Assembly: GCA_947626355.1 (NCBI GenBank)
Contig: CANQRV010000021.1
Coordinates: forward strand, 1 to 40,208
DNA: 40,208 nt
Source: an uncultured Muribaculaceae bacterium
GTDB lineage: Bacteria > Bacteroidota > Bacteroidia > Bacteroidales > Muribaculaceae
Reading direction: 5' to 3'
Shown here: positions 4,525 through 20,404 of the stretch, in pieces
How positions within the stretch are numbered: the stretch's first letter is position 1
Layout: the number at the start of each line of letters is the position of its first letter
Notes under the pieces: model-generated
What the model was told of the DNA's origin: nothing
The model's database searches: none
The model's input: only the letters and a program-made list of their open reading frames with translations
Program-made: the position numbers and the translations under genes

Positions 4525-5520
4525 TCAATGTTGTTTCGCTTTGGCATTGAGCGACTTTATTGTGTCGAGATAGGCACGTTCCACCGGAGAGAGCTCGCGG
4601 ACCTGGAATTTACGATATTCTTCCCGCGCTTTGTCCATTGCCTGCTGATGGCTGACCGAGCCGGGACCATTCAGTAAAGCCTCTCCGGTAGACGATAGAA
4701 TGGTATCGAGCTGGCTGACATAGTCGCTCATATACATAGGGCGCCGCTTGATCGCCTGAATCTCGGCGAAGTCGAAATATCCGGACACAAGATTGTTGAG
4801 TATATTCAGTTCCTGCTCACTCAGATAATTCTTGGCGATCTGCGCATCTCGGAGGGTGGGATGATCTCCTTTGAAAGAGGTCAGGCCCATCATCGGTACG
4901 TCGGCATCAGCCCGCTTGAAAATCACCTCGGCAGCGGTATTGCCATGAGCTGCGTAATGAAGCTTGTTCTGTACGATCTTGAAGAACTCAACTGATATTT
5001 CAGAACGAGGATCATAGTCTACGGCCGTAGCATAGAGGTCAAGCACCTGACGATACATCACCTTCTCTGATGAACGTATGTCACGGATACGGTCGAGCAA
5101 TTCACGCCAATAGGCACCTCCTCCATTACCTTTCAAGCGCTCGTCGTCCATCGTGAAACCCTTGATGATGTATTCCTTCAGTCGTTCCGTAGCCCATCTG
5201 CGGAAGCGGGTTGCGATTACCGACCGGATCCGATATCCCAGGGATATGATCATGTCGAGATTGTAGAACGGAATCTCGCGGGCCACTTGACGATTGCCTT
5301 CCTGACGAACCTGTCGGAATTTCCGACAGGTTGATTCTTCATCAAGCTCACCATCATCGTAAATGTGTTGTATATGCTCAATCACATTACTTCTTGACGA
5401 CTGATATAGTTCAGCCATCTGCTGCTGCGAGAGCCATACAGTCTCGCCGGTAAACTTCACGTCGATACGGGTATTTCCGTCTTCGCTCTGATAAATGATT
5501 ATGCTGTTGTCTTCAGGCAT
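4525..5520 (-). CDS. rhuM: RhuM-family protein (virulence RhuM / KilA-N-like N-terminus)
   Basis: The family pattern is clear: an N-terminal 'IIIYQSEDGNTRIDVKFTGE' followed by 'TVWLSQQQMAELYQSSRSNV' and 'EHIQHIYDDGEL', then 'FYNLDMIISLGYRIRS' and 'FRRWATERLKEYIIKGF'. Proteins of this family occur scattered through bacterial genomes, often on mobile or defence-associated islands; RhuM was named from a Salmonella pathogenicity island and its molecular function is not established. The start was set at the ATG at 5520 (MPEDNS), because the 14 extra residues available from 5562 do not match the family. The central segment resembles an HTH-bearing antirepressor, which is inference. No obvious toxin or restriction partner lies next to it, so it looks like a lone cargo gene. 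Confidence 0.85.
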   Translation of the reverse strand: MPEDNSIIIYQSEDGNTRIDVKFTGETVWLSQQQMAELYQSSRSNVIEHIQHIYDDGELDEESTCRKFRQVRQEGNRQVAREIPFYNLDMIISLGYRIRSVIATRFRRWATERLKEYIIKGFTMDDERLKGNGGGAYWRELLDRIRDIRSSEKVMYRQVLDLYATAVDYDPRSEISVEFFKIVQNKLHYAAHGNTAAEVIFKRADADVPMMGLTSFKGDHPTLRDAQIAKNYLSEQELNILNNLVSGYFDFAEIQAIKRRPMYMSDYVSQLDTILSSTGEALLNGPGSVSHQQAMDKAREEYRKFQVRELSPVERAYLDTIKSLNAKAKQH

Positions 5521-5601
5521 TGTCTGGAGGTTTCGAGAGTGGATATGCCGCGAAGTTACCAAATAATATCCAGCCGGGCAAATCTCTCATGAAAACATTT
5601 C

Positions 5602-6116: not shown

Positions 6117-7673
6117 TCATCCGAATTTCCAGGCGGTGATGTTGCGGGTCTTGGTGGAGAAGGTGACGCCTAATTCCACCACCGGGCGAGGGTCGCCCAT
6201 GAACTGGCGGGAGTAGTCCTTCTCCCGGATCTGCTCCAGGGCCTCCTCGGGAGTGCCGTCTCGCTTCAGCTCGATGACGTAGATGTAGTTGCGCATCCTA
6301 AGCAGCAGGTCGATGCGCCCCTGCGAGGTGTGCCATTTCGGACGGGCGTCGACGCCCACCAGCACGAAGATGATGAAGAGGTTGTTCTCGTAGTGGAGCT
6401 CCACGGCGTTCTCGGCGAACTCATACGGTATGCCGGCCATGAACGTGCGCAGCCGCTCCATCGCCTCGTCGACCCTCCGCTCCTCAAGAAGCTTCCGCAC
6501 ATCATAGACGTAATTGTAGATGGCCTCGTAGTCCTTCTCGAAATAGATGCTCGCGAGGTCCTCGAACAGTCCCTTGCGTACCTCCAGGTTGGGGATGCCG
6601 AGACGGTAGCGCTCCGGCTCCTCATATCCCTTGATGGTGAGGTAGCCGGTCTGATAAAGCAGAGCCGTCGGTTTGGCCTTGAAGAGGTCGTTCGACGACA
6701 GCGTCCTTTCCTCCACCGTCTCGTCGAACATGTCGGGAAGGAAGTTGTTGCCGGCCCGGATATGGCGCACGAGGAACTCCGGAGTGCCGCTCTGGAACCA
6801 GTAGGCGCCTATCCTGCCTTCGCTAAATGCGCACAGCACGCTGAAAGGATTGTAGATGTCGGGACATTCTGCCGTGAAGTGGTAGCCGTCGTAGTTGGTT
6901 TTCAGCAGCGCCACGGCCCCTTCAGGGTCCGTCCTCCTCATTCGGGCGAGTTCTTCTATCCCTTGCCTGAAGTTATCCCTCAGTTCACTCTCTGTGATTC
7001 CACATATTGGGGCATACCTGTAGTTGAGCGAGATGTCCTGGAGATTGTTGAGGCCACTGAAGATGGTCATCTTGCTGAACCGGTTCACGCCTGTCAGCAT
7101 AGTGAAGCGGATATAACGGTCGAGGTCCTTGATGTTGACGTATACGGACTTAAGCAGCAGGCGGTGGGCCTCGAGCCTCTCCTCATCATGCATCGTCTCG
7201 ATCAGCGGGTGGTCATACTCGTCGACGAGTATCACGACAGGTTGGCCGGTTCTCTCGTAGGCCGCCATGATGATCTTGCGGAAGCGCATCGAGAGGTCCG
7301 CGGTTTCCGGTCTGACATCATAGAGCTTTTCCCACTCGCTGAACTGGACATCGAGTATATCCTCGAGGTTGCCTCTGTTGTCGGCGCGATAGGTGGCGAG
7401 GCTGAGCATCAGCACCGGGTGCACCGGCCATTCCGTCTCAAGCCTCTCCATGGCGAGGCCCCTGAAGAGTTCACGCTTTCCCTCGAAATAGGCCTGGATT
7501 GTGGACAGCAGCAGGCTCTTGCCGAAGCGACGCGGCCTCGACAGGAAAACACAGTTGCTGCTGTGCACAAGATTGTAGATCAGCTCCGTCTTGTCGACGT
7601 AGAGGTATGAAAGCTCGCGGAGCTTCTCGAAGCTCTGTATGCCTATGGGATAGCGAACGGGGATCTTTTCCAT
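6117..7673 (-). CDS. AAA-ATPase-like / PD-(D/E)XK nuclease family protein, copy 1
   Basis: This 518-residue protein combines an N-terminal AAA-ATPase-like domain (PF09820 type) with a C-terminal PD-(D/E)XK nuclease-like domain (PF08011 type), a pairing very common and often multicopy in Bacteroidetes. A degenerate Walker A is seen at 45-53 (SRPRRFGKS) and a Walker B at about 146-152 (VVILVDE). The nuclease signature is Asp455 followed by Glu468-Leu-Lys470 (YVIELKRDG). The start at 7673 is favoured because the MEKIPVRYPIG segment begins the conserved domain and a promoter match lies just upstream at 7694-7725; residues read from an ATG at 7844 would be untranslated leader. A close paralogue lies at 18760-20319. 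The biological role of this family is unproven; selfish-element or defence roles are possible. Confidence 0.85.
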   Translation of the reverse strand: MEKIPVRYPIGIQSFEKLRELSYLYVDKTELIYNLVHSSNCVFLSRPRRFGKSLLLSTIQAYFEGKRELFRGLAMERLETEWPVHPVLMLSLATYRADNRGNLEDILDVQFSEWEKLYDVRPETADLSMRFRKIIMAAYERTGQPVVILVDEYDHPLIETMHDEERLEAHRLLLKSVYVNIKDLDRYIRFTMLTGVNRFSKMTIFSGLNNLQDISLNYRYAPICGITESELRDNFRQGIEELARMRRTDPEGAVALLKTNYDGYHFTAECPDIYNPFSVLCAFSEGRIGAYWFQSGTPEFLVRHIRAGNNFLPDMFDETVEERTLSSNDLFKAKPTALLYQTGYLTIKGYEEPERYRLGIPNLEVRKGLFEDLASIYFEKDYEAIYNYVYDVRKLLEERRVDEAMERLRTFMAGIPYEFAENAVELHYENNLFIIFVLVGVDARPKWHTSQGRIDLLLRMRNYIYVIELKRDGTPEEALEQIREKDYSRQFMGDPRPVVELGVTFSTKTRNITAWKFG

Positions 7674-7693
7674 ATCAAATCCGGTATTTCCCA

Positions 7694-7725
7694 CAAAGTT
7701 AATGTTTTTATCCCTCAATTGCAAA
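7694..7725 (-). promoter_or_regulatory. Bacteroidetes-type promoter of AAA/PD-(D/E)XK copy 1
   Basis: Read on the minus strand, TTTG (complement of 7722-7725) is followed after 20 bases by TAACTTTG (complement of 7694-7701), matching the Bacteroidetes -33/-7 pattern TTTG and TAnnTTTG. The start codon is about 20 bases further on. The same arrangement, with nearly the same spacer, precedes the paralogue at 18760-20319, which supports it being functional. Confidence 0.65.
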
Positions 7726-7860
7726 CTGGCGGCACCATTTACACATACCTGAACGGCAATAAAGAAACGCAATACCTGAAAAAGGGGATTTTTCGCAGAC
7801 ATCCGATGGGAGCTGCCTGGGGGAAGGTAGGAGAAGATGAACAATCATCTATTTATGGTA

Positions 7861-7891
7861 TTGACCGGAGAAGGAAACGGATGTAATTTTG
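7861..7891 (+). promoter_or_regulatory. Promoter of the hmu haem-iron operon
   Basis: TTG at 7861-7863 is followed after 20 bases by TAATTTTG at 7884-7891, a full match to the Bacteroidetes -7 consensus TAnnTTTG. The start codon of the first operon gene is at 7917, leaving a short leader of about 20 bases. It lies about 140 bases from the divergent promoter of the AAA/PD-(D/E)XK gene. No clear Fur-type palindrome was recognised around it. Confidence 0.65.
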
Positions 7892-7916
7892 CATCCGAAA
7901 ATCATAACCCTGCGAC

Positions 7917-9434
7917 ATGAAGACGACACCCCACAGACCAATCAGCAAAGCCATACATAAATGGGCCGGACTCCTGATATCGATACTGATGCTGGTGTTC
8001 TGTATCTCGGGTGTGATTCTCAACCACAGGTCGCTCTTCACGACATGCTCTGTAAGCAGAAGCCTCCTCCCCTCCGAATACCACATAGAAAACTACAACA
8101 ACGGCATCATAAAAGGCACTCTACGCACCGCCAACGGCAAGTTGCTTGCCTTCGGCAACAGCGGCGTCTGGCTCACCGACTCCCTTTTTTCTTCCTTTGC
8201 CGACTACAATGCCGGGCTTCCCGAAGGCATCGACAGCAGAAACATCCGCAACATCACCGCCACCAATGACGGCACGCTATGGTGTGCCACCCAGTTCGGA
8301 GTCTACCGCCACAACGGAAAGGAATGGCACGAGATGAAGCTGCCGGGATGCCGGGAACGCGTAGCCGACATCACCCTTACGGGCGACAGCACATCGGTCG
8401 TGGTCTTGACCCGCTCAGCTGTCTATCCTCTCGCCCACAACGGTTTCAAGCGACTGGAGCTGCAGGCACCCGCCGGATATGAAAAGAACGTGAGCATGTA
8501 TAAGACCCTATGGATGCTGCACAGCGGCGAGCTCTTCGGATTGCCGGGCAGGCTTATCGTGGACTGCATCGCGGTGATCCTTGCCTTCCTGAGCATCACG
8601 GGCATAGCGCTCTTCATACTCCCCTACTCCCTGCGCACTACTATCAGGACAAACCTGAAAGCCACACTCGGCAGGACATTCAAGTGGAATTTCAGATGGC
8701 ACGACCGCATTGGCTACGCCACGATCATCCTGACCGTCATCGTGGCTTTCACCGGCATGTGTCTGCGTCCGCCGCTCATGATTCCATTCGTGATGCTGAA
8801 GACCACTCCCCTTGCCGCCACTACACTCGACTCCGACAACGCATGGCACGACAAGCTGCGGGCCATCAGATGGGACAGCGCCAACGCCCGCTGGCTGCTC
8901 TCCACCTCCGAAGGATTCTTCATCTCAGACAGGACATTCGAGGGCACACCCATGAAAGTGAAGCAAAAAAACGTGCCGCCCGTAAGCCCGATGGGAGTCA
9001 CGGTGTTCGAGCCCCGCACAGAGGGCAGTTGGCTAATCGGTTCGTTCAGCGGAATGTTCATATGGAATCCGGCCGACGACACACTGAAAGACTACTTCAC
9101 CGGCAAAGACCACGAGGCTCCGAAATCGATGCGCCCGATATCCGACCACTTAGTGGCGGGATACTCGAAAGACATCGCGGGACACGAAGTGACATTCGAC
9201 TACTCGAAAGGCGCCAGCATGAAGCTCCCGGCCTCGGATGAAATCGAGAGGCAGCCGATGTCGCTCTGGAACTTCGCACTCGAACTCCACGTAGGGCGCT
9301 GCTACACCCCGGTGCTCGGTCCGTTCTCCTCACTCTTCGTATTTCTTGCCGGAGCCATCACCATAACCGTGCTGCTGACTGGGCTGACACTGCACCGACG
9401 ACACCGGCCACATAACCAGAAACCAACACAATAA
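7917..9434 (+). CDS. PepSY-associated transmembrane protein, candidate haem/iron reductase-like component
   Basis: This 505-residue membrane protein heads the hmu operon. It has a first helix with a conserved 'HKWAGLLISILMLVFCISGV' start, a second region with LHSGEL followed by a long hydrophobic segment (DCIAVILAFLSITGIALFIL), then RWHDRIGYATIILTVIVAF, and a last helix after ELHVGRCY. This helix-histidine arrangement matches PepSY-TM proteins, several of which act as inner-membrane reductases for ferric siderophores using haem bound by those histidines (FoxB/FpvG-like, family knowledge). Between helices 1 and 2 and again between helices 3 and 4 lie beta-rich, propeller-like periplasmic segments ('DGTLWCATQFGVYRHNGKEW'; 'GSWLIGSFSGMFIWNPADD'). 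It is 4 bases upstream of the next gene. A reductase role on haem iron is inference. Confidence 0.8.
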   Translation: MKTTPHRPISKAIHKWAGLLISILMLVFCISGVILNHRSLFTTCSVSRSLLPSEYHIENYNNGIIKGTLRTANGKLLAFGNSGVWLTDSLFSSFADYNAGLPEGIDSRNIRNITATNDGTLWCATQFGVYRHNGKEWHEMKLPGCRERVADITLTGDSTSVVVLTRSAVYPLAHNGFKRLELQAPAGYEKNVSMYKTLWMLHSGELFGLPGRLIVDCIAVILAFLSITGIALFILPYSLRTTIRTNLKATLGRTFKWNFRWHDRIGYATIILTVIVAFTGMCLRPPLMIPFVMLKTTPLAATTLDSDNAWHDKLRAIRWDSANARWLLSTSEGFFISDRTFEGTPMKVKQKNVPPVSPMGVTVFEPRTEGSWLIGSFSGMFIWNPADDTLKDYFTGKDHEAPKSMRPISDHLVAGYSKDIAGHEVTFDYSKGASMKLPASDEIERQPMSLWNFALELHVGRCYTPVLGPFSSLFVFLAGAITITVLLTGLTLHRRHRPHNQKPTQ

Positions 9435-9438
9435 CATA

Positions 9439-9915
9439 ATGAAAAAAACAGCTACAATTCTCGCCATGCTGGCAATAAGCCTCGGCATGGCAGCCCCCCT
9501 CACGTCTTGTTCCGACAACGACGACAAGCCCGCCGCCCCCGCCGCCAAAAGCGTGGAAGGCACCTATAGCGGCGACATGAGCTGCACCGTAATGGGCAGT
9601 GAGTCAACCTTCGAGGGTATGACATTCACTGTCACGGCCACCGACGACGCCACCGTGAACGTCGCGATTCCCAGCTTCGGCAACCCGCCGATGCAGGTGC
9701 CGCAGGTGACGGTCGCCGGAGTAAAGGTGTCGGGCGAAGAGGGCTCCTACACACTGGCCTCAACGGAGTTTAACGGCACCACCGACGGAGGCAAGACCTA
9801 TTCGGGCACCCTTCAGGGATCGGCCGCCGACAAAGCCATAACCATAGAGTTCAGCCTCCAGTATGGCGCGATGCCCATGCCGATGATCTGCAAATTCACT
9901 TCCTCCACGAAATAA
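9439..9915 (+). CDS. Calycin-like lipoprotein in the HmuY position
   Basis: This is a 158-residue lipoprotein with a clear signal peptide (MKKTATILAMLAISLGMAA) and lipobox LTSC (Cys24), then an acidic linker (SDNDDKPAAPAA) and an all-beta domain of about 120 residues starting 'VEGTYSGDMSC'. This looks like the calycin-like lipocalin-type fold (PF13944 type) of Bacteroidetes. In other Bacteroidales hmu operons the gene before hmuR encodes the haemophore HmuY, which has a different family signature that I do not see here. Methionines are frequent (PPMQVP, GAMPMPMIC), which could suit haem or metal binding. The stop is 5 bases before hmuR. A haem-capturing role at the cell surface is inference from position. 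Confidence 0.72.
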   Translation: MKKTATILAMLAISLGMAAPLTSCSDNDDKPAAPAAKSVEGTYSGDMSCTVMGSESTFEGMTFTVTATDDATVNVAIPSFGNPPMQVPQVTVAGVKVSGEEGSYTLASTEFNGTTDGGKTYSGTLQGSAADKAITIEFSLQYGAMPMPMICKFTSSTK

Positions 9916-9920
9916 GCGCC

Positions 9921-11924
9921 ATGCGTGGAAATCTGAGACATTATCCCGCCGTCATCCTCTGGCTTCTGTCTCCGCTCACAGCCCTTGCCGGCAATGATGC
10001 CGGCAGGGGCCTCGACGGGACGGGGAGTCCCGCTGCCGGCGCCACAGACAGCATCGGCTACTATCTCGCGATGATGACGCCCGACGAGACGGAGCTGGGC
10101 GAGGTGGTGGTCACGGCCACACGCACCCCCAAGGCCCTCAAGGACGTGCCGGTAGTGACACGGATGATCACCTCGGATGAGATAGCGAAGGCCGACGCCA
10201 CCAATATCCAGGACCTCCTGACCGAGGAGCTGCCAGGCCTGGAGTTCGGATACGCCATGAACCAGGAGACCTCGCTCAACATGAGCGGCTTCGGAGGCAA
10301 CGCCGTCCTCTTCCTCGTAGACGGCGAGAGGCTGGCCGGCGAGACCATGGACAACGTGGACTACAACCGGCTCAACCTCGGCGACGTAGAACAGGTGGAG
10401 ATCGTGAAGGGGGCCTCGTCGGCGCTTTACGGAGCCAACGCCGTAGGGGGTGTGGTGAACCTCATCACCCGGGAACGCACCGAGCCCTGGCACGTGAACC
10501 TCAACACCCGCTACCGGAGTTTCGGCAACGAATGGCGCAGCGGCGGCGACATCAGCTTCAACAGCCACCAGTGGAATTCCAACACGTCGCTGCAATACAC
10601 CACATCACAGACGGTGAGACTCACCGACGCCTTCGACACCGAGTCGAAAATCCACAGCATATACGGCGGCAACACACTTAACATCAAGGAACGCCTCGTG
10701 TTCAGAGCCAGCGACAGGCTCCGGCTCATAGCCAGAGGAGGGTATTTCTCGAGGGTGAGCCACCGCGCCAACTACGACGACCACTACCACGACTACACCG
10801 GGGGCTTACGTGGGGTATGGAATATAGACGACAGCCAGAACCTCGAGATGTCGTACAGCTACGACCGTTATGACAAGAGCCGGTATGTAGGCGACGTGCG
10901 CACCCACGACCACGACTACAGCAACCGGCAACACATAGTCCACGCCCTGTACTCTAAGTTCTGGGGCAGCAACGGACTGACCGCGGGAGCCGACTACCTC
11001 CACGACTACCTCACCACATATCAGTTTACCGACAACGGCCATCACGCCCAGACATCGCTCGACGCCTTCGTGCAGTTTGACTACAACCCGCTGTCATGGC
11101 TCAACGTCATCGCCTCCGTGCGCGACGACTATTTCTCCGAGTCGGACCGCAACGCCGTCACCGCACGGCTGGCCACGATGTTCAAGCTCAGGCCCCTGTC
11201 GATCCGGGCATCTTATTCCGGAGGCTTCAGGGCACCGACCCTCAAGGAGATGTATATGAGTTTCGACATGGCGGGCATCCAGATGATCTACGGCAACCCC
11301 GACCTCAAGCCCGAGCGGAGCCATAACTTCAACGTGGCGCTGGAGCGTAACCGACAGGTGAGGGGATCGCGGATGGCCGGCTCCTACAGCGTGACGGCCT
11401 CCGGCTACTACAACTACTACGACAGCCGGATCACCACCACCGATTTCCCGGCCACCGGCGACCTCGAGGAAGGAGCCATCTACACCAATGAAGACGGCGT
11501 GAAGGTGATGGGGCTGGACATCACGGTCCGCTACCGCACGCTTTTCGGACTGGGAGCATCGGCGAGCTACAACTACCTCCATACGGCAGGGCACACCGTC
11601 GACTCGCAGTTCACACAGCCGCGGCCCCACTCCGCCACCTGGCGCATAGACTACACGCGGCAGATATGCCGTTCTTGGCAGCTATATGCCGCCATCTCCG
11701 GCCGATACCTCTCCAAGCCGGAAAGCCGTTACGAGACCGACGGCGCATACTCGCTGTGGAAGCTCACGCTCCAGCAGAAGCTATGGAAAGGGATAAACGT
11801 AAGCCTCATAATCGACAACCTCCTGAACTACAAGCCGAAAATATATTACTGGAACTCGGCTCCCACCAACGGGACGACATGGTCGGTGGGCGTCAGCCTC
11901 GACATCGATGAAATTTTCAACTAA
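9921..11924 (+). CDS. hmuR: TonB-dependent haem receptor HmuR
   Basis: This 667-residue outer-membrane receptor imports haem with energy from TonB. It has a signal peptide (to about residue 23), a TonB box and plug start (LGEVVVTATRT, 59-69), the plug 'VLFLVDGERLAGE' and 'IVKGASSALYGANAVGGVVN', and a 22-strand-type barrel ending in aromatic 'SLDIDEIFN'. The haem-receptor boxes FRAP (436-439) and NPDL (459-462) are present. Between them the segment reads LKEMYMSFDMAGIQMIYG, with four methionines and no histidine, whereas P. gingivalis HmuR has an important histidine in this stretch. Exposed loops are His-rich (YDDHYHDY, about 285-292; THDHDY, about 328-333). Its position directly before hmuS fixes the annotation. 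Confidence 0.9.
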   Translation: MRGNLRHYPAVILWLLSPLTALAGNDAGRGLDGTGSPAAGATDSIGYYLAMMTPDETELGEVVVTATRTPKALKDVPVVTRMITSDEIAKADATNIQDLLTEELPGLEFGYAMNQETSLNMSGFGGNAVLFLVDGERLAGETMDNVDYNRLNLGDVEQVEIVKGASSALYGANAVGGVVNLITRERTEPWHVNLNTRYRSFGNEWRSGGDISFNSHQWNSNTSLQYTTSQTVRLTDAFDTESKIHSIYGGNTLNIKERLVFRASDRLRLIARGGYFSRVSHRANYDDHYHDYTGGLRGVWNIDDSQNLEMSYSYDRYDKSRYVGDVRTHDHDYSNRQHIVHALYSKFWGSNGLTAGADYLHDYLTTYQFTDNGHHAQTSLDAFVQFDYNPLSWLNVIASVRDDYFSESDRNAVTARLATMFKLRPLSIRASYSGGFRAPTLKEMYMSFDMAGIQMIYGNPDLKPERSHNFNVALERNRQVRGSRMAGSYSVTASGYYNYYDSRITTTDFPATGDLEEGAIYTNEDGVKVMGLDITVRYRTLFGLGASASYNYLHTAGHTVDSQFTQPRPHSATWRIDYTRQICRSWQLYAAISGRYLSKPESRYETDGAYSLWKLTLQQKLWKGINVSLIIDNLLNYKPKIYYWNSAPTNGTTWSVGVSLDIDEIFN

Positions 11925-11928
11925 ACGG

Positions 11929-14900
11929 ATGAGAAAGAAGAAGAAAATAATACTTGACATAATAGCCGGCGCCGTCACCATCGGGGCCGGCGCTCTCCTG
12001 TGGAACAGGTGGGCCTCGACCACCGACATAGCGTTTGTCAACTATCAGGCCATCACTCTCGGACAGATCTCCAGAGCCAACGACAACTCCTTCATCAAGA
12101 TACACGAGCTGAGTGTCGACGACATCGACAAGGCCGGAAAATACGATATGGTGATGGTCAACGGCATGGGCTTGCGCATCACCGACGAGCAGCGCGAGCA
12201 GCTGACCTCCGCCGCCGAAAGCGGCACGCCGGTGATCACCACAGCCGCCACCAATCCTCAAAACCAGATCACCTCGGTGGATTCGATCGATGACGCGTTT
12301 CTGAGACAGTATCTCACAGGCGGACGCGCCAACTACCGCAACATGCTCGAATACGTCAGGAAATTCATCGACGGCAAAAAGCTCTGGTCACACCTTCCCG
12401 GCGACCCGACACTCAGCGCCACCTCTCTTCTCTACTACCCTTCCGACACCGAGGAGCTCGGCTTCCAGTCGGTGAGGGAATACGAAGGATGGCTGAAGAG
12501 AAACGGCAAATGGAAAGAGGGCGCACCGCGGATCATCCTCACCGGGCAGATGGGTGTAGCCGACAGTCTTGTAGCCAAGCTCGAGAAGAGCGGCAACATG
12601 GTGTATCCCGTCAGCGTGATCCAGCCGTTCATAGCCTACGGCCACGCCGACTCGATAAAATGCAGGGCACTGATCAATATGGCCCACGGACGCATGGGCG
12701 ACGAGGTGACGGCATGGCTGGAGACCCATGACATTCCCCTCTTCGCGCCCGTCAACGCCAACCGCGACTACAACGAGTGGATGGACGACAAGATGGGGAT
12801 GAGCGGAGGCTTCATGTCGCAAAGCATAGTGACCCCTGAGATCGACGGCGCCATACGCCCCTTCACGCTCTTCGCACATTTCAAGGGCTCCGACGGGCTG
12901 CCCCATGTGGAGGCCATACCGGGACGCGTGGATGAATTCGTGGCTACCGTCGACAACTACATCTCGCTGGGACATAAAGCCAATAAAGACAAGAAGCTGG
13001 CCATCTTCTACTTCAAGGGGCCCGGACAGAGCGCACTGGTGGCCGAGGGAATGGAAGTGGCGCCGTCGCTCTACAACCTGCTGAAACGCCTGAAAGAGGA
13101 GGGCTACACTGTGGAGGGCCTCCCTGCCGACGCGGCTGCCTTCGAGCGTCTGATATCCGAGAACGGACGGATCTTCAACGACTACGCAGCGGGGACACAG
13201 GCCGACTTCGTGGCCCACAACCATCCACAGACCGTAAGCAAAAAGGAATATGACGACTGGTGCGGAAAGTCTTTCTCAGATGAGATGCGCGGAGAGATCG
13301 ACGCGCTCGACGGTCCATTCCCCGGACACGGACTGAACGACGGGAAAGGAAACGCGGCCGTGGCCCGCATAAGGCTCGGCAATGTGGTGCTGATACCTCA
13401 GCCGGCAGCGGGTCTCGGCGACGACGACTTCAAGATAGTGCACGGCACAGACGCCGCGCCACCGCATAATTATGTAGCGGCCTATCTGTGGGCGCGCCAC
13501 GGATTCGGAGCCGACGCGCTGCTGCATTTCGGCGCCCACGGCTCGCTGGAGTTCACACCGCGCAAGCAGGCGGCTCTCGGAAGCCGTGACTGGCCCGACC
13601 GTCTCGTAGGGCCCCTCCCCCACTTCTATGTCTACTCCACATCCAATGTGGGAGAGGCGATGATCGCCAAGCGACGCAGCTATGCCGGAATCGTCAACTA
13701 CCTCACGCCACCGTTTATGGAAAGCAACGTAAGGGGAATTTATAAGAACCTCTCCGACGCCGTGGCCGACTACAACAGGGCGAAGACAGGCGCCGACTCG
13801 CTGAAGGCAGGCCGCCTCGTGAGGAAATACACCCTTGAGCTCGGCATACACCGCGAGCTGAGGATCGACAGCACACGGCAGTTCTCACCCGACGACATAG
13901 CCCGTATCGAGGGCTTCGCCGAGGAGCTCGCCAACGAGAAGATCACCGGCGCGCTCTACGTGATGGGAGTGCCCTATTCAGACGCACATATCCGCCAGAC
14001 AGTGGAGGCTATGGCCGTGGATCCACTGGCCTACAACCTGCAGAAACTACGTGGCGGCGACATACGCTTCTGGCGCGAGAAGGCACGGGAGTTCGTGAGG
14101 AATCCGCGCCCGGTGGACGACGCCTATATCCTCTCGGTGGCGGGCCTCACGCAGGCGCAGCTCGACAGCGCCCGCAAGACGGCGAAAGCCATCGAAGGCT
14201 CGCGCGGCATGCTCTCACGCATGATGGTGATGGGGTCGATGATGCCGGCGAAAAGCGAGAAGCCGTTGAAAATCTCGGAGCGTAAGCAGCCTAAGACCCG
14301 TCACGCCATGATTCCGGGAATGTCGCCGGAGAAGGCCATCGAAATGGCGAGAAAGATGGGGGCCGACGATGCCGCCATCGAGAAGATGAAGGCCGCCATG
14401 GTGCGCAAGAGCGTCACACCCAAGGGGCCTAAGGCCGCAGGCCATCCCGGCATGAAGAAAAGGGATCTGTCGAAAGAGGAGATTGAATTCTCGATGGCCG
14501 TGATGGAAGTGGAGCGTGCGCTGAGAAACATCGGCGCCTACCGCAATGCGCTTCTGGAAAGCCCCGGCAGAGAGCTGACCTCGATAGTCAACGCCCTCAA
14601 CGGAGGGTTCATTGCCCCGACCTCCGGCGGCGACCCGGTGCTGAACCCCGACATACTGCCCACAGGCCGCAACATGTTTGCTGTAAACGCTGAGGAGACC
14701 CCATCGGCCGTGGCATGGGAGAAAGGGAAAGACCTCGCCGAGGCCACCATCAGGATGTATCGCAAGGCCCACGGCGACTCGATACCGAGAAAGGTAAGCT
14801 ACACGCTCTGGAGCAGCGAGTTCATAGAGACGGAGGGGGCCACGATAGCTCAGGTGCTCTATATGCTCGGCATGGAGCCTGTGAGGGATCCGTTCGGGCG

Positions 14901-16158
14901 CGTCACCGACCTGCGTCTCATACCCTCAGAAGAGCTTGGAAGGCCGCGCATCGACGTGGTGGTGCAGACCTCCGGGCAGCTCCGCGACCTTGCCGCCTCG
15001 CGCCTCTTCCTCATCGGCCGGGCGGTGAAGATGGCAGCGGAGGCCAGGGATGACGTCTACCCCAACTTCGTGTCGCAGGGCGTGACGGAATCGGAGAAGC
15101 ATCTGGTCGACAAAGGGGTGTCGCCCAAAGAAGCCCGCGAGCTCTCCACCTCCAGAGTGTTCGGAGGAGTCAACGGCAACTACGGCAGCGGCATACAGAG
15201 CATGGTGGAGGCAGGCGACCGCTGGGAAGACTCCGGGGAAATCGCCTCGACATATATCGCCAACATGGGAGCGAGCTACGACAGCGAGGAGCAGTGGGAG
15301 CAGATGCGCGAATACGCCTTCGAGGCTGCGCTGACTCAGACCGACGTGGTGGTGCAGCCCCGGCAGAGCAATACGTGGGGAGCGCTGAGCCTCGACCATG
15401 TGTATGAGTTCATGGGAGGGATGAACCTCGCCGTCAGGGAAGTGACCGGCAAGGAGCCCGACGCATATCTCAGCGACTACCGCAACCGCAACAACGTGAG
15501 GATGCAGGAGGTGAAGGAGGCGATCGGCGTGGAGAGCCGCACCACCATACTCAATCCCGAATACATAAAGGAGAAGATGAAGGGAGGAGCCGGCGACGCC
15601 GCCGTTATCGCGGAAACCATCACCAATACCTACGGATGGAATGTGATGAAGCCCGACGCCATCGACAACGAGCTCTGGAACGACATCTACGACACCTATA
15701 TCGCCGACAGGCACAACCTTGGCGTGAAGGAGCACTTCGAGAAAGCAAATCCTGCGGCAATCGAGGAGATGACGGCCGTGATGCTGGAATCAGCCCGCAA
15801 AGGTCTCTGGAAAGCCACACCCGGGCAGGTGGCCGCGCTGGCACGGATGCACACGGAAGTCGTGGAGCGACATGGAGCGGCCTGCACAGGCTTCGTATGC
15901 GACAACGCCAAGCTCCGCGACTACATCGCCTCGAAGGCACCTGCCGCCTCGGCAGCGGGTTATAAGGCCGCAGTGGCCGAGGCGAGAGCCGAGAACGTGG
16001 CGCAGGGCGACGGAAAAGTGATGAAGAAGGAGTCGCTGAATCAGACTGAATCGGTCACCAACCGGGTCAACGGCGTCATCGTGGCCGCGATCGCCGCGGT
16101 TGCCGTGGCAGGGCTGGTGGTGCTGATACGCCGTCGCCGTAAAAACAGGGAAGAGTGA
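11929..16158 (+). CDS. hmuS: CobN-like membrane-anchored haem dechelatase HmuS
   Basis: This is a very large (about 1,409 residues) CobN/magnesium-chelatase-H-like protein. The core signature is 'HFGAHGSLEFTPRKQAALG' at about 533-551, with 'GVNGNYGSGIQSMVEAG' and 'WGALSLDHVYEFMGGMN' later. Unlike cytoplasmic CobN it has an N-terminal membrane helix right after MRKKKKI and a C-terminal one (VIVAAIAAVAVAGLVVLIRR), so its body should lie outside the cytoplasm. HmuS of Bacteroides has been reported to remove iron from haem without oxygen, giving free porphyrin. The region coded by 14205-14505 is a Met/Lys/Pro-rich insert. The start at 11929 falls just after the hmuR stop; an alternative ATG at 11908 would overlap hmuR by 17 bases. 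No CobS/CobT or ChlI/ChlD partners are nearby, arguing against B12 synthesis. Confidence 0.9.
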   Translation: MRKKKKIILDIIAGAVTIGAGALLWNRWASTTDIAFVNYQAITLGQISRANDNSFIKIHELSVDDIDKAGKYDMVMVNGMGLRITDEQREQLTSAAESGTPVITTAATNPQNQITSVDSIDDAFLRQYLTGGRANYRNMLEYVRKFIDGKKLWSHLPGDPTLSATSLLYYPSDTEELGFQSVREYEGWLKRNGKWKEGAPRIILTGQMGVADSLVAKLEKSGNMVYPVSVIQPFIAYGHADSIKCRALINMAHGRMGDEVTAWLETHDIPLFAPVNANRDYNEWMDDKMGMSGGFMSQSIVTPEIDGAIRPFTLFAHFKGSDGLPHVEAIPGRVDEFVATVDNYISLGHKANKDKKLAIFYFKGPGQSALVAEGMEVAPSLYNLLKRLKEEGYTVEGLPADAAAFERLISENGRIFNDYAAGTQADFVAHNHPQTVSKKEYDDWCGKSFSDEMRGEIDALDGPFPGHGLNDGKGNAAVARIRLGNVVLIPQPAAGLGDDDFKIVHGTDAAPPHNYVAAYLWARHGFGADALLHFGAHGSLEFTPRKQAALGSRDWPDRLVGPLPHFYVYSTSNVGEAMIAKRRSYAGIVNYLTPPFMESNVRGIYKNLSDAVADYNRAKTGADSLKAGRLVRKYTLELGIHRELRIDSTRQFSPDDIARIEGFAEELANEKITGALYVMGVPYSDAHIRQTVEAMAVDPLAYNLQKLRGGDIRFWREKAREFVRNPRPVDDAYILSVAGLTQAQLDSARKTAKAIEGSRGMLSRMMVMGSMMPAKSEKPLKISERKQPKTRHAMIPGMSPEKAIEMARKMGADDAAIEKMKAAMVRKSVTPKGPKAAGHPGMKKRDLSKEEIEFSMAVMEVERALRNIGAYRNALLESPGRELTSIVNALNGGFIAPTSGGDPVLNPDILPTGRNMFAVNAEETPSAVAWEKGKDLAEATIRMYRKAHGDSIPRKVSYTLWSSEFIETEGATIAQVLYMLGMEPVRDPFGRVTDLRLIPSEELGRPRIDVVVQTSGQLRDLAASRLFLIGRAVKMAAEARDDVYPNFVSQGVTESEKHLVDKGVSPKEARELSTSRVFGGVNGNYGSGIQSMVEAGDRWEDSGEIASTYIANMGASYDSEEQWEQMREYAFEAALTQTDVVVQPRQSNTWGALSLDHVYEFMGGMNLAVREVTGKEPDAYLSDYRNRNNVRMQEVKEAIGVESRTTILNPEYIKEKMKGGAGDAAVIAETITNTYGWNVMKPDAIDNELWNDIYDTYIADRHNLGVKEHFEKANPAAIEEMTAVMLESARKGLWKATPGQVAALARMHTEVVERHGAACTGFVCDNAKLRDYIASKAPAASAAGYKAAVAEARAENVAQGDGKVMKKESLNQTESVTNRVNGVIVAAIAAVAVAGLVVLIRRRRKNREE

Positions 16159-16853
16159 TGGAGATAGTGGTAATCGTGATAATGATGATGGTGGGCGTGA
16201 GCTTCATGCTGAAGCTGAGTTGCCATGGATGGGCGGGGCGCCTCGTCCTCGCCCTTCTGGCAGCGGCCTTCATCATCCTGACCTACGACGCGGCCGCGTC
16301 GCAGTCGAAGACGCAGATCAAGGAATGGCTCGGAGAGCCGGAGCTGATGCTCGACATGTCGGTGCTGCTCACGATAGACGTGGCATTTCAGATATGCTAC
16401 TGTGTGCTGGGCGCCCGCGCGCTCCACGACACACTCCCGAAGACACAGGCCATGCTGCTGCAGGTCACCCTCTGGGTGCCCGGGCTGCTGGTCTTCCCCA
16501 CCCTCTTCGCGATGCTCACCATGCTGATCTTCACCTTCACGGGCACCGATTTCGCCGCGATCGCATGGGGGCTGGCCGGAATCACACTTGTCGGGATGCC
16601 ACTGGGAGCGGCGCTGACGAAATTGCTGATTCCGGAGCCGGAGATCCGTCTTGAGATGATCTTCATGGTCAACCTCCTCATCGCGGCGCTCGGCATCGTG
16701 GCCACCGTGAACGGACGTACGGCGGCGGCCGGCACCTCCGAGGTGGAATGGGGTGCACTCGCTGGCATCGTGATTATCCTGCTGGCCGGACTCGGCGCCG
16801 GCCTGGTTCTCAACCGATATCTGACACAAAAGAAAATAACAAAACTGAAATGA
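16158..16853 (+). CDS. hmuT: Hmu integral membrane protein HmuT (DUF2162-like)
   Basis: This is a polytopic membrane protein of 231 residues, almost entirely hydrophobic segments with short loops: IVVIVIMMMVGVSFML at the start, LVLALLAAAFIILTY, 'MLLQVTLWVPGLLVFPTLFA', 'AIAWGLAGITLVGMPLGAAL', 'MIFMVNLLIAALGIVATVNG' and 'GIVIILLAGLGAGLVLNRYL'. Its length, topology and position between the CobN-like gene and a MotA/TolQ/ExbB-like gene match the DUF2162 putative transporter of hmu and related clusters. The ATG at 16158 shares its A with the hmuS stop (TGATG), so translation is coupled; an alternative GTG lies one codon earlier. It probably forms an inner-membrane complex with HmuU and HmuV around HmuS. 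Substrate (iron, porphyrin or haem) is not known. Confidence 0.8.
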   Translation: MEIVVIVIMMMVGVSFMLKLSCHGWAGRLVLALLAAAFIILTYDAAASQSKTQIKEWLGEPELMLDMSVLLTIDVAFQICYCVLGARALHDTLPKTQAMLLQVTLWVPGLLVFPTLFAMLTMLIFTFTGTDFAAIAWGLAGITLVGMPLGAALTKLLIPEPEIRLEMIFMVNLLIAALGIVATVNGRTAAAGTSEVEWGALAGIVIILLAGLGAGLVLNRYLTQKKITKLK

Positions 16854-17455
16854 ACGTAATTTCCAACATCCTCTACTGGATATCGACCGGCCTGCTCGTG
16901 CCGGTGATAGTGTTGCTTATCTTTTTCTTCATCCGGGCCATCATCCTGATCGGCACGTTTTTCGGGCAGTATCTCAACGAGAAGAAGACCGTCGCTCCGC
17001 TCTACGACAAGGTGGAGAAGCTTACGCCCGACGGAGTCGAAGACTTCTATGAGTCGCTGCCTGCAAAGAGCCGGTCAGTGGCCGGAAGCTACGTGAGGAA
17101 GCTCATCGAGGAGCGCGACAATGCCCCGAAGGTCGAGCTCCTGCTGGCTGAATACGAGCTGGAAGCCGACAAAAACATCGCCACCTCGAAAGTGCTGACG
17201 AAGATGGGTCCGATCCTGGGACTGATGGGCACTCTGATACCGATGGGACCGGCGCTCGTAGGTCTCGCCTCCGGCGACATAGCGTCGATGGCCTACAACA
17301 TGCAGGTGGCGTTTGCCACCACGGTGGTGGGGCTGGTGGTCAGCGCCATCGGCTTCCTGACGCAGCAGGTGAAGGAGCGATGGAGCGTCAAGGGGCTGAC
17401 GGCCCTTGAATATCTGGCGGATGTAGTGAAACAATCGAACACAACCAACGCATGA
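16850..17455 (+). CDS. hmuU: Hmu MotA/TolQ/ExbB-type proton channel protein HmuU
   Basis: This 201-residue protein has the three-helix ExbB/TolQ layout: an N-terminal helix (LLVPVIVLLIFFFIRAIILI), a cytoplasmic stretch with 'YESLPAKSRSVAGSYVRKLI', then the paired conserved helices 'KMGPILGLMGTLIPMGPALV' and 'MQVAFATTVVGLVVSAIGF'. The 'GPxLGLxGTLxPxGPAL' pattern is the family signature. Such proteins conduct protons to energise an envelope partner. Its ATG overlaps the hmuT stop (ATGA), and its own stop overlaps hmuV in the same way, indicating a tightly coupled complex. By analogy it may power HmuS or the receptor; a dedicated ExbD is absent, and HmuV may take that place, which is inference. 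Confidence 0.85.
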   Translation: MNVISNILYWISTGLLVPVIVLLIFFFIRAIILIGTFFGQYLNEKKTVAPLYDKVEKLTPDGVEDFYESLPAKSRSVAGSYVRKLIEERDNAPKVELLLAEYELEADKNIATSKVLTKMGPILGLMGTLIPMGPALVGLASGDIASMAYNMQVAFATTVVGLVVSAIGFLTQQVKERWSVKGLTALEYLADVVKQSNTTNA

Positions 17456-17781
17456 GACGCCGGCACAGACTATTGAGAAAGGGAGAGGACAGCGACCCGA
17501 TGAGCGTGGTGAGCAACCTTTTCGACGTGGCTATGGTGTTTGCCGTGGCGCTGATGGTGGCGCTGGTGAGCCGCTACAACATGACGGAGATGCTGAGCAC
17601 GGAAGACTTCACGATGGTGAAGAATCCCGGCAAGGAGAATATGGAGATCATCACCAAGGAGGGTGAGGAGATCAGCCGCTACACACCGTCGGAGGATTCC
17701 GACCCGTCGCAGAACAAGGGAAAGCGCGTGGGCATCGCCTACGAACTGGAGAACGGCGACATCATCTACGTCCCGGAATAG
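17452..17781 (+). CDS. hmuV: Hmu DUF2149 protein HmuV (ExbD-like partner)
   Basis: This 109-residue protein has a basic N-terminus (MRRRHRLLRKGEDSDPMSVV), one membrane helix (DVAMVFAVALMVALVS) and a small soluble tail ending 'GIAYELENGDIIYVPE'. That is the DUF2149 pattern, found with MotA/TolQ/ExbB-like and CobN-like genes. The single-helix topology with a periplasmic tail resembles ExbD/TolR/MotB, so it probably pairs with HmuU. It starts inside the hmuU stop (ATGA) and is the last gene of the operon; the next sequence, 4 bases on, belongs to a truncated relic on the other strand, so no intact terminator was identified. Confidence 0.82.
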   Translation: MRRRHRLLRKGEDSDPMSVVSNLFDVAMVFAVALMVALVSRYNMTEMLSTEDFTMVKNPGKENMEIITKEGEEISRYTPSEDSDPSQNKGKRVGIAYELENGDIIYVPE

Positions 17782-17785
17782 CAGA

Positions 17786-18292
17786 CTATTCGGACCAGTC
17801 GTCGGTGCGGAAAGGCACGAGGGGCATGCCATACATGTTCTTCACCTTTCCTATGGCGAAATTGGGAATCATGGCCATCCTGATGCCGGGATATCTGCCG
17901 GAATATGCGATGGCCTGGGCCGCTCCCTCCACGGGCTGTGTCCAGAATCCTCTCAGGGGCATCTCCATGTTCGACTGTCCGGAGGCGAGCCACACCTCGC
18001 CGCTGAGCAGGTTGCGGATGGTCTTCGACTCTCCGTCGGAGTCGGAGAATGTGATCTCGAGCGGGGTGTAGGAGGCTTTCGGTGTGCGGAGCGTAAGCTT
18101 CCATCTGCCGTCGGAGTCGGCGGTGGCTGAAGCAGGGCCGGATTGCCACGACGGAGTCGCGGTAACGGTGGAGCCTGGAGTGTCCCATCCCCAGAGGGTG
18201 ATGTCGGTGTCCTGCTGAAGCACGGCGTTGTCGCCGATGATGGCTGGGAGGCGGAGTGTGGAAGCACTGGATACAGCCGCACAAGCGGCCAG
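17786..18292 (-). pseudogene. Truncated sialate O-acetylesterase (SGNH hydrolase) relic
   Basis: The minus-strand translation reads from a signal-peptide-like remnant (LAACAAVSSASTLRLPAIIG) into 'DNAVLQQDTDITLWGWDTPG' and 'GEVWLASGQSNMEMPL', the opening domain and catalytic-serine block (GQSNM) of sialate O-acetylesterases. Intact family members run to roughly 450-700 residues; this one stops after about 169 with WSE, where the family normally continues. At the 5' end the frame is broken: a TGA lies at 18293-18295 and the expected ATG is in another frame. Both ends are lost, so this is a relic. The hmuV stop lies 4 bases beyond its end, so the breakpoint sits directly against the operon. Confidence 0.75.
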
Positions 18293-18403: not shown

Positions 18404-18763
18404 TCAGTAACTGGAGATGAAGACGGAGACGTCGCAGGTGGCGTAGCTGAGGCCGAAGACACCGGCATCGAAGTTCGGGGAGTCGGGATAGGAGATAGTA
18501 ACGGTGCGGCCGCGTGAGGAGACGGTGACACCGCGACCGTCGGGTGTGATCTCGGCCCATATCGGGCCTATATATTCATAGTAGTGAGACGGGAGGAGAG
18601 CGGCGATGTTGATACGCGGAGAGATCCTGAACTCCGATGTATCGACGTAAGCGCCGGTGCCGCTTGAATACTGCCCCGCCTGTGTGGAGCATGAGATACG
18701 GAGCCTCACTCCCCCCTCAAGCAGATTCACTGCAGTGCGTCTTGCTGAAATATCCATCGTCAT
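18404..18763 (-). CDS. Small protein of unknown function, translationally coupled to AAA/PD-(D/E)XK copy 2
   Basis: This 119-residue ORF starts at an ATG whose last bases form the TGA stop of the upstream AAA/PD-(D/E)XK gene (ATGA at 18763-18760). The product is beta-rich with many Ser, Tyr and Gly (SCSTQAGQYSSGTGAYVD, HYYEYIGPIWAEITPDG, TVSSRGRTVTISYPDS) and a possible internal second ATG at 18757. I do not recognise a family. It has no signal peptide or membrane helix. The overlap implies co-translation with the nuclease-like protein, and copy 1 of that gene has no comparable partner. Whether it is an authentic partner or chance coding sequence cannot be settled here. Confidence 0.5.
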   Translation of the reverse strand: MTMDISARRTAVNLLEGGVRLRISCSTQAGQYSSGTGAYVDTSEFRISPRINIAALLPSHYYEYIGPIWAEITPDGRGVTVSSRGRTVTISYPDSPNFDAGVFGLSYATCDVSVFISSY

Positions 18764-20319
18764 TCGGCGGTTTTCCAGGCGGTGATGTTGCGGGTCTCGG
18801 TGGAGAAGGTGATGCCTAATTCCACCACCGGGCGCGGGGCGCCCATGAACTGGCGCGTGTAGTCCTTCTCCCGGATCTGCTCCAACGCCTCCTCGGGAGT
18901 GCCGTCGCGCCTCAGCTCGATCACATAGATGTAGTTGTGCATCCGCAGCAGAAGGTCGATGCGCCCCTGCGAGGTGTGCCACTCCGGACGGGCATCTACC
19001 CCCACCAGCACGAAGATGATGAAGAGGTTGTTCTCGTAGTGCAGCTCCGTGGCCTTGTCGGCGAACTCATAGGGTATGCCGGCCATGAACGTCCGCAGCT
19101 GCTCCATCGCCTCGTCGATCCTCCGCTCCTCCAGCAGCTTCCTGACCTCCCTGACATGGTTGTATATGTAGTTGTTGTCCTTTTCGAGATACCGGACGGC
19201 AAGGTTCTCGAAAAGCCCTTTCCTCACCTCAAGGTTGGGAATGCCGAGGCGATACCGGTCGGGCCTCTCATAGGACTTGATGGTGAGGTAGCCGGTCTGG
19301 TAAAGGAGCGCCGTCGGGTTGTCGTTCAGGATGTCGCTTGCCGACAGCGTCGTCCCCTCTACGGTCTCGTCAAACATCTCCGGAAGGAAACTGCCGCCGT
19401 TCCGGATCCGGCGCATCAGGAACTCCGGTGTGCCGCTCTGAAACCAGTATGCTCCGATCTCCCTCACCTTGAATGCCCACAGCAGGCTGAAGGGATTGTA
19501 GATGTCCGGACTTGTCTTTGCGAAATGGTAGCCGTCGTAATTGGCTTTCAGCAACCCAACGGCTCCGTCACGGTCCATACTGTATTCCTCGGCAAGACTC
19601 AGGATTCCCTCCTTGAAATATCCGGTGAGTTCCTTGTCGGTGATGCCGCATATCGCGGCGTAGTCCCTGTTCAGGGATATATCCTCGAGGTTGTTGAGCC
19701 CGCTGAAGATGGTCATCTTGCTGAAGCGGCTCACGCCTGTAAGCATGGTGAAGCGGATATACTCGTCGAGGTCCTTGATGTTGACGTAGATCGACTTCAG
19801 CAGCATGCGGTGGGCCTCGAGCCTATCTTCATCGTGCATCGTCTCGATCAGCGGGTGGTCATACTCGTCGACAAGGATCACTACCGTCTGACCGGTCGAG
19901 TCATGGGCTGCCATGATGATGTCTGCAAATCGGGAGGACAGATCCCCGGTCTTGGCCTCGATGCCATATCGTCTTTCCAAAAAGCGAAACTGGAGGTCGA
20001 GGACTTCCTCCAGGTTGCCGCCGTTGAGCGGACTGTATCTGGCGAGGCTGAGCTTCAGGACAGGATGCACCGGCCATTCCGTCTCCAGCCTCTCCATGGC
20101 AAGACCCTTGAAAAGCTCCTTCTTTCCCTCGAAATAGGCCTGGATCGTGGAGAGAAGCAGGCTCTTGCCGAAGCGCCGCGGCCTCGACAGGAAGACACAG
20201 TTGCTGCTGTGCACGAGACTGTAGATGAGCTCCGTCTTGTCGACGTAGAGGTATGAGAGCTCACGGAGCTTCTCGAAGCTCTGTATTCCTATCGGGTAGC
20301 GAACGGGGGTCTTTTCCAT
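18760..20319 (-). CDS. AAA-ATPase-like / PD-(D/E)XK nuclease family protein, copy 2 (catalytic Lys to Arg)
   Basis: This 519-residue paralogue of the gene at 6117-7673 has the same strand, domain order and near-identical ends. The Walker A-like SRPRRFGKS is at about 45-53 and Walker B VVILVDEYDHPLI at about 146-158. In the nuclease domain the block reads YVIELRRDG: Glu468 is kept but residue 470 is arginine where copy 1 and the usual E-x-K motif have lysine. Such a change often cripples metal-dependent cleavage, so this copy may bind rather than cut (inference). The start at 20319 was chosen because the conserved domain begins there and a promoter match lies at 20340-20371. It is preceded on the same strand by the ZIP transporter gene and overlaps the following 119-residue ORF. 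Confidence 0.85.
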   Translation of the reverse strand: MEKTPVRYPIGIQSFEKLRELSYLYVDKTELIYSLVHSSNCVFLSRPRRFGKSLLLSTIQAYFEGKKELFKGLAMERLETEWPVHPVLKLSLARYSPLNGGNLEEVLDLQFRFLERRYGIEAKTGDLSSRFADIIMAAHDSTGQTVVILVDEYDHPLIETMHDEDRLEAHRMLLKSIYVNIKDLDEYIRFTMLTGVSRFSKMTIFSGLNNLEDISLNRDYAAICGITDKELTGYFKEGILSLAEEYSMDRDGAVGLLKANYDGYHFAKTSPDIYNPFSLLWAFKVREIGAYWFQSGTPEFLMRRIRNGGSFLPEMFDETVEGTTLSASDILNDNPTALLYQTGYLTIKSYERPDRYRLGIPNLEVRKGLFENLAVRYLEKDNNYIYNHVREVRKLLEERRIDEAMEQLRTFMAGIPYEFADKATELHYENNLFIIFVLVGVDARPEWHTSQGRIDLLLRMHNYIYVIELRRDGTPEEALEQIREKDYTRQFMGAPRPVVELGITFSTETRNITAWKTAE

Positions 20320-20339
20320 GTCAAATACGGTATTTTCCA

Positions 20340-20371
20340 CAAAATTAACTCTTTTATCCCTCAATTGCAAA
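20340..20371 (-). promoter_or_regulatory. Bacteroidetes-type promoter of AAA/PD-(D/E)XK copy 2
   Basis: On the minus strand TTTG (complement of 20368-20371) is followed after 20 bases by TAATTTTG (complement of 20340-20347). The spacer begins CAATTGAGGGATAAAA, the same as in front of copy 1, so promoter and gene were duplicated together. The start codon is about 20 bases downstream. Confidence 0.65.
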
Positions 20372-20404
20372 TAATAACAGACGTGGTGTAAAGCCACACA
20401 TGCG

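Follow-up and report, generated by a model that had tools for sequence, protein, structure and literature searches.

The closest described relatives of the locus reported here are the hmuYRSTUV operons of Bacteroides thetaiotaomicron and Porphyromonas gingivalis. The locus itself is an hmu operon of seven + strand open reading frames (ORFs) spanning positions 7917-17781 of the window, by which we mean the whole analysed stretch of 40,208 nucleotides: one whole contig (CANQRV010000021.1) of an uncultured Muribaculaceae bacterium (GenBank assembly GCA_947626355.1; genome of 3,085,921 bases, 99.89% complete). It shares with the two known operons the R-S-T-U-V order and an HmuS that has the catalytic histidine and a methionine-rich stretch. 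It differs from them in having no hmuY, in carrying a calycin lipoprotein gene in its place, and in a PepSY_TM gene added behind the promoter.

HmuS acts on ferrous haem, and its turnover is NADH-dependent and occurs mainly in the membrane fraction; the way in which the haem is reduced is described in the same paper as not yet known (PMC12583661). There are 385 species that have hmuRSTUV but no HmuY, and some HmuY-less clusters have been suggested to serve cobalamin or another corrinoid (PMC10100974). The Figure 1 legend of a 2025 paper (PMC12106395) labels hmu cluster genes as 'pepSY' and 'cal', the same two kinds as in our operon; the excerpted text of that paper gives no role, fold, survey or pepSY-HmuS link. 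That hmu clusters can carry PepSY and calycin genes is thus already known. Our literature searches, limited to one library, showed neither a propeller-type PepSY_TM protein, with the propeller in place of the PepSY domains, nor a recurrent link of such a protein to HmuS as a candidate electron donor.

Two other systems are informative. The xenosiderophore system XusABC likewise combines a TonB receptor, a surface lipoprotein and a PepSY inner-membrane protein, XusC, which is proposed as a reductase in the XusABC model (PMC13142918). It differs in its DUF4374 lipoprotein, its siderophore substrate and its lack of HmuS, and we liken it to our first protein by description only. In FoxB of Pseudomonas aeruginosa (7abw) the part outside the membrane consists of two PepSY domains (PMC13038864), where the first protein of our operon has a predicted split propeller instead.

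We propose that the locus serves the anaerobic use of haem iron and encodes a reductase for this purpose, in that the product of the first gene, a FoxB-like dihaem protein, would supply electrons for ferrous haem to HmuS; we judge the chances that this reading is right to be evenly balanced. The features on which the argument draws are as follows:

7859..7891, + strand: Bacteroidetes-type promoter (TATTG, 20-base spacer, TAATTTTG), sole match to the pattern in the window
7878..7897, no strand: perfect inverted repeat, each arm 6 bases long, surrounding the -7 box, a possible operator (repeat search)
7917..9434, + strand: first gene (g1), PepSY_TM-family membrane protein (Pfam, predicted fold, conserved histidines)
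9439..9915, + strand: calycin-like lipoprotein gene (Pfam, barrel model)
9921..11924, + strand: hmuR, TonB-dependent receptor (Pfam; top NCBIfam models below their cut-offs)
11908..16158 (start probably 11929), + strand: hmuS, CobN-like haem de-chelatase (Pfam, match to 9d26)
16155..16853, + strand: hmuT, membrane protein (position, similarity to the hmuT of relatives)
16850..17455, + strand: hmuU, ExbB-type proton channel protein (Pfam)
17452..17781, + strand: hmuV, DUF2149 protein (Pfam)

All the ORFs were found in the order and with the spacing that an initial annotation of this DNA had given. Four bases separate the first gene from the calycin gene and 5 bases the calycin gene from hmuR, and hmuS, hmuT, hmuU and hmuV follow one another with successive 4-base overlaps. 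Pfam families were found for six of the seven products (PepSY_TM, Calycin_like, TonB plug and barrel, CobN, MotA_ExbB and DUF2149).

The first gene product and its linkage to hmuS

The initial annotation described the first protein as a PepSY-type membrane protein with several helix-associated histidines. The family assignment stands, with a match to PepSY_TM PF03929 at 61.7 bits (cut-off 28.8), and so do the place at the head of the operon and a reductase-type histidine pattern. What falls away is the PepSY domain itself: the protein has no match to PF03413 up to an expectation value (E) of 0.1, on which ground we rejected a classical PepSY architecture. By contrast, one PepSY_TM protein at another locus (L189) does have PF03413. 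The structure model of the first protein consists of four long helices and a propeller, with two extracytoplasmic loops predicted to build a single split beta-propeller that is probably six-bladed. This number follows from six strand groups in the model, and six- and seven-bladed chains lie within about 1 Z of each other in the structure search. When Foldseek was run with the model, propellers of Bacteroides sensor proteins ranked at the top, and FoxB was not among the structure matches listed, the listed rows being propellers. A profile of the first-protein family also reaches Bacteroides sensor-protein propellers, at a whole-sequence E of about 3e-7 with weak single stretches.

The histidines are as the initial annotation had them. 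H14, H37, H202, H262 and H458 are histidine in 86, 86, 87, 86 and 86 of 87 aligned rows, respectively; the sole odd row at H14, H37, H262 and H458 is each time the same long-branch row (L105_2503), and all five are conserved in the other 86. The family profile matches FoxB (7abw) with a whole-sequence E of 1.2e-4, and FoxB helix-end histidines align opposite H14, H202 and H262 in stretches of 3.9, 18.6 and 1.3 bits, respectively. This comparison points to a FoxB-like membrane core of four helices with five conserved histidines, and we propose that the first protein is a periplasm-facing dihaem reductase, the putative pairing of its haem ligands being read from helix order only.

We surveyed the 80 best relatives of the first gene in named genomes. 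Loci were chosen as best first-gene matches or as hmuS hits, not randomly, and many end at contig edges, so that a neighbour that seems to be missing may lie beyond the cut and linkage counts are lower bounds. First-gene relatives adjoin hmuS in 13 of the 80 loci. The order of our operon, g1-cal-R-S-T-U-V (cal being the calycin gene), recurs among these 13 and is joined by the orders cal-R-S-T-U-V-g1 (the copy at L067 is cut upstream by a contig end) and S-T-U-V-g1-cal-R. The gene content and order of the operon are real and not rare.

The view from hmuS is similar. We annotated 60 regions around hmuS hits as well as the window, and 52 of these have hmuS with at least two of hmuT, hmuU and hmuV; left out were hmuS hits in ten genomes of the genus (G121, G091, G093, G116, G077, G066, G097, G106, G023 and G112) and weak order-level hits in G403, G285 and G151. 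A first-gene relative is present in nine of the 52 regions, window included, one of which (L174) comes from the genome of L054, itself one of the 13 loci above. Three of the nine have a calycin gene without HmuY, five have HmuY without a calycin gene and one has both. Within hmuSTUV regions g1 also lies between hmuR and hmuS (L144, L152) or between hmuY and hmuS (L162, L163 and L165; L166 likewise, but there other genes separate hmuY and g1). Among the 101 genomes of the window's genus, eight have a first-gene relative and 28 an hmuS match, and three of the eight relatives are known to sit beside hmuS (in the window, G018 and G123). The first gene belongs to the accessory, and not to the core, genes of hmu operons.

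On a tree of the first-gene relatives, hmuS linkage can be explained by five changes, where shuffles need 18.9 on average. A single clade of the hmuS-linked rows was rejected by the approximately unbiased test (p-AU 3.7e-26 for 21 rows and 4.1e-5 for 17, without four distant rows), a test that assumes a group named beforehand and was run on quick-type trees that place the four distant rows at the end of a long branch. The tree omitted L174, identical sequences and ORFs below 380 residues or 100 bits; L105_2503 was kept for the change count and removed from the p-AU tests. As the tree rejects one clade, we discard a single origin of the link and read the pairing of the first gene with hmuS as having arisen more than once.

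There is also a smaller haem locus, made up of an hmuR-like receptor, hmuY and a propeller-type PepSY_TM gene, with no hmuS in the fetched stretch. It occurs at L069, L071, L072, L073, L076, L082, L088, L109 and L120, the hosts including Bacteroides fragilis (L072) and Tannerella forsythia (L109).

HmuS, the probable haem type of the operon and its promoter

HmuS matches CobN PF02514 at 959 bits, and its closest solved chain is 9d26, 'HmuS heme dechelatase', with 1685 bits over residues 8-1414. His544 aligns with the essential His538 of 9d26 (required for turnover; PMC12583661), and the methionine-rich insertion typical of the family, at residues 766-862, has 13 methionines in 97 residues. Since the alignment to B. 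thetaiotaomicron HmuS begins at residue 8 of the listed ORF, translation probably starts at 11929 and not at 11908. HmuT, HmuU and HmuV follow, as in hmu haem operons; the hmuT product has no Pfam match above cut-off and was recognised by its position and its similarity to relatives. The two best NCBIfam models for HmuR are haem or haemoglobin receptors, both below their cut-offs (best 148.8 against 316.85), and the third-best is a vitamin B12 receptor (122.5 against a cut-off of 599.7). An Rfam scan of the window at gathering score gave no match, and hence no cobalamin riboswitch. The window's genome has one FeoB and no match to ferrochelatase PF00762, which eight of 14 control genomes, including that of a Bacteroides, do have. 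Given the match of HmuS to 9d26 with His544 and the methionine-rich stretch, a genome with FeoB and without ferrochelatase, and the lack of a riboswitch, the operon is most likely of the haem type, in agreement with the initial annotation.

A second kind of hmuS locus (L177, L186, L189, L191 and L192) carries a TonB receptor and a cobalamin riboswitch (103-117 bits). CbiK is found in L177 and L191, and a PepSY_TM gene in L177, L186 and L189 (ten proteins scanned). L177 also has FecCD and a periplasmic binding protein, so that two chelatase-type proteins and a reductase-type protein stand in one B12-linked locus.

The pattern TATTG-N(18-22)-TAnnTTTG, which is of the Bacteroidetes promoter consensus type, occurs once in the window with both strands scanned, at 7859-7891, and ends 25 bases 5' of the first ATG. 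The single promoter match of the initial annotation holds for this pattern and not for sigma-70: a sigma-70 scan of 7600-18200 gave four matches against a shuffled mean of 3.3 and no site 5' of 7917, which led us to reject a sigma-70 promoter ahead of the first gene. Of 72 other hmuS loci, 20 have the same Bacteroidetes-type pattern between -350 and +150 relative to their first annotated gene and 52 lack it there; its background rate is 44 in 2,454,130 positions overall. It is carried by ten of the 12 nearer hmuS loci (window included), where it precedes the PepSY gene if that gene is first and, in loci that lack a PepSY gene, the calycin gene. This arrangement supports a single transcript for the operon and suggests that the PepSY gene was inserted ahead of the calycin gene, behind a promoter that was already there. 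Relatives also have the -7 box; the inverted repeat at 7878-7897 is described here from the window locus, and near matches to it in the window are no more numerous than in shuffles.

The operon is flanked by two minus-strand AAA-ATPase_like/PDDEXK_9 genes (6117-7844 and 18760-20397) that form direct repeats, their proteins being 79% identical and 1610 bp matching at 81.7% DNA identity. Recombination between them could lead to loss of the intervening block. Also nearby, on the minus strand, are a RhuM-family gene (4525-5562; PF13310, 357 bits) and, 3' of the operon, a ZIP-family metal transporter gene (20405-21169).

The calycin lipoprotein in the place of HmuY

The lipoprotein matches Calycin_like PF13944 at 74.6 bits (cut-off 30), the only family above cut-off; by Pfam it is not a member of the HmuY family PF14064. 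It has a conserved Cys24 followed by an acidic run, and it is modelled as an eight-stranded barrel (mean predicted local distance difference test score 83.8). The protein has ten methionines and no histidine, so haem ligation would require other residues, and we rejected a His-ligated haemophore. Among 13 calycin relatives from operons of this kind, C24, V51, M85, M145 and P146 are invariant, and M52, M147 and M149 are kept in 90% or more. The conserved methionines sit, in the model, in or at the edge of the loops after strands 1, 3 and 7. The loop geometry of an up-and-down barrel puts the loops after these strands at the same open end, and the loop methionines may thus share one open end of the calycin barrel. 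A pair of methionines also lies at the haem site of B. thetaiotaomicron HmuY (PMC10100974), so a methionine-lined haem site in the calycin lipoprotein is reasonable but unproven.

The spread of the motif around Met145 counts against this methionine reading of the calycin. This G-x-M-P motif is present in all 21 calycins without HmuY, and it occurs also in seven of 13 calycins at HmuY loci and in BF2706 of B. fragilis (3rwx), which has two matching stretches and an entry title that gives no function. Because the motif extends to HmuY loci and to 3rwx, it is at least partly a trait of the wider calycin family, and its conservation may be structural.

The initial annotation placed the lipoprotein where HmuY would stand, and indeed neither the operon nor the genome has a match to PF14064, a family found in 32 of the 52 genomes searched. 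It is not merely a stand-in, though: a calycin gene accompanies HmuY in nine of the 52 hmuSTUV regions and occurs without it in another nine. Calycins that accompany HmuY are often longer, two-domain forms. For these counts a calycin was scored above 35 bits, which excludes a fragment in L145; the hidden Markov models built from our own hits miss one HmuY (in L150, found by PF14064), and the HmuY region counts are slightly low. The nine genomes with calycin-only operons have no HmuY anywhere, whereas 32 of the 43 other genomes searched do have one (Fisher p 4.6e-5, with eight of the nine from one genus and not independent). That none of the nine has HmuY strengthens the reading of the calycin as a stand-in. 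We rejected the view that calycin and PepSY together strictly replace HmuY: calycin and HmuY occur together in nine of 52 regions, and the first-gene relative is found with HmuY in six of nine regions and with calycin alone in three. The calycin gene is a common companion of hmu genes and occurs by itself in operons that have no HmuY. In B. thetaiotaomicron BT_0498, a neighbour of hmuY, is iron-regulated, 264-fold (PMC10434189).

Proposed electron supply for HmuS

The proposed course of haem use would begin with the calycin lipoprotein as a surface haem-capture or receptor-partner protein, possibly acting through its loop methionines. HmuR, energised by the HmuU/HmuV pair, would import haem into the periplasm; HmuS, held at the inner membrane, would remove iron from ferrous haem; and Fe(II) would be taken up via FeoB (roles as in PMC12583661 and PMC10100974). 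In the first protein, one haem would be ligated by H14 and H262, close to the cytoplasm, and a second by a pair from among H37, H202 and H458, close to the periplasm, and the two haems would relay electrons across the membrane from quinol or a cytoplasmic donor. The propeller would dock ferric haem, or HmuS carrying ferric haem, so that the haem becomes ferrous at HmuS. The initial annotation named iron reduction after de-chelation. We revise that order: HmuS works on ferrous haem, so reduction is more likely needed before de-chelation. A more specific form of the proposal, which we put forward as tentative and would sooner doubt than accept, is a complete periplasmic unit: the propeller-bearing dihaem protein takes ferric haem and hands it reduced to the HmuS de-chelatase, and the methionine-ligating calycin barrel forms a haemophore class separate from HmuY.

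Several observations weigh against a reductase dedicated to HmuS. Two of the three stretches aligned with FoxB are near noise, and only that around H202 has any strength. The expectation that the first two genes keep company with hmuR-S is half contradicted: no hmuS is seen at 67 of the 80 loci that hold a first-gene relative, in part owing to contig ends, and some of the 67 lie beside hmuY. A first-gene relative is absent from 43 of the 52 hmuSTUV regions, and PF03929 has no match in 16 of the 43 near-complete genomes with hmuS. HmuS thus does not everywhere depend on a PepSY_TM protein; PF16357 is no substitute, as all of its 14 genomes also have PF03929. Recombinant B. thetaiotaomicron HmuS turns over one to two times with NADH and no PepSY protein, and flavodoxin has been suggested as its electron donor (both PMC12583661).

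The main rival takes the first protein for an ordinary ferric-siderophore or ferric-iron reductase, such as FoxB is reported and XusC proposed to be, co-located through iron-starvation regulation and without contact with haem or HmuS, which is possible if on the whole improbable. Known PepSY_TM members do reduce ferrisiderophores (PMC13038864; XusC model, PMC13142918), and the 67 loci without hmuS speak for it; yet the operon has no second TonB receptor and the first gene joined hmuS more than once. The neighbours at those 67 loci also fit it poorly: among immediate same-strand neighbours (42 upstream, 32 downstream), HmuY is narrowly the commonest family upstream (6/42, with sulfatase at 5/42), while downstream cupin leads (5/32; HmuY 2/32), and 15 of the 87 tree rows are hmuY-linked. 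We think it unlikely that the first protein instead feeds electrons elsewhere in haem use, such as maturation or export, or itself moves haem across the inner membrane. Room for such a function comes from HmuT, which has no known role (PMC12583661) and no family match above cut-off, and FoxB-like cores bind haem; a haem mover is at odds with a model of four long helices and a propeller, the membrane part of which matches a reductase, not a transporter, family. Quite improbable is a haem or iron sensor without a redox role, akin to hybrid two-component propeller sensors, since Pfam gives no kinase or DNA-binding family in the first protein and the five conserved helix-end histidines would need another reason, for all that both the family profile and Foldseek match Bacteroides sensor propellers. 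We give very little credence to an HmuY-less operon serving cobalamin or another corrinoid, for which speak the cobalamin riboswitch in five of seven picked hmuS loci and the third-best, far-below-cut-off B12 model for HmuR: we rejected it, as the window has no Rfam match, HmuS is of the haem de-chelatase type and similar-layout operons in the same genus carry HmuY (L179, L183 and L184).

For the HmuY-less hmuRSTUV species, a calycin that takes the place of HmuY adds a third reading to those of a diverged HmuY and of a function other than haem use. As to electron supply by the first protein, a membrane reductase joined to hmuS repeatedly, and at various places in the operon, is a concrete, testable candidate for the donor. 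If the more specific form of the proposal is true, the repeated joining of such reductases to hmuS would reveal which protein donates the electrons when haem is de-chelated anaerobically.

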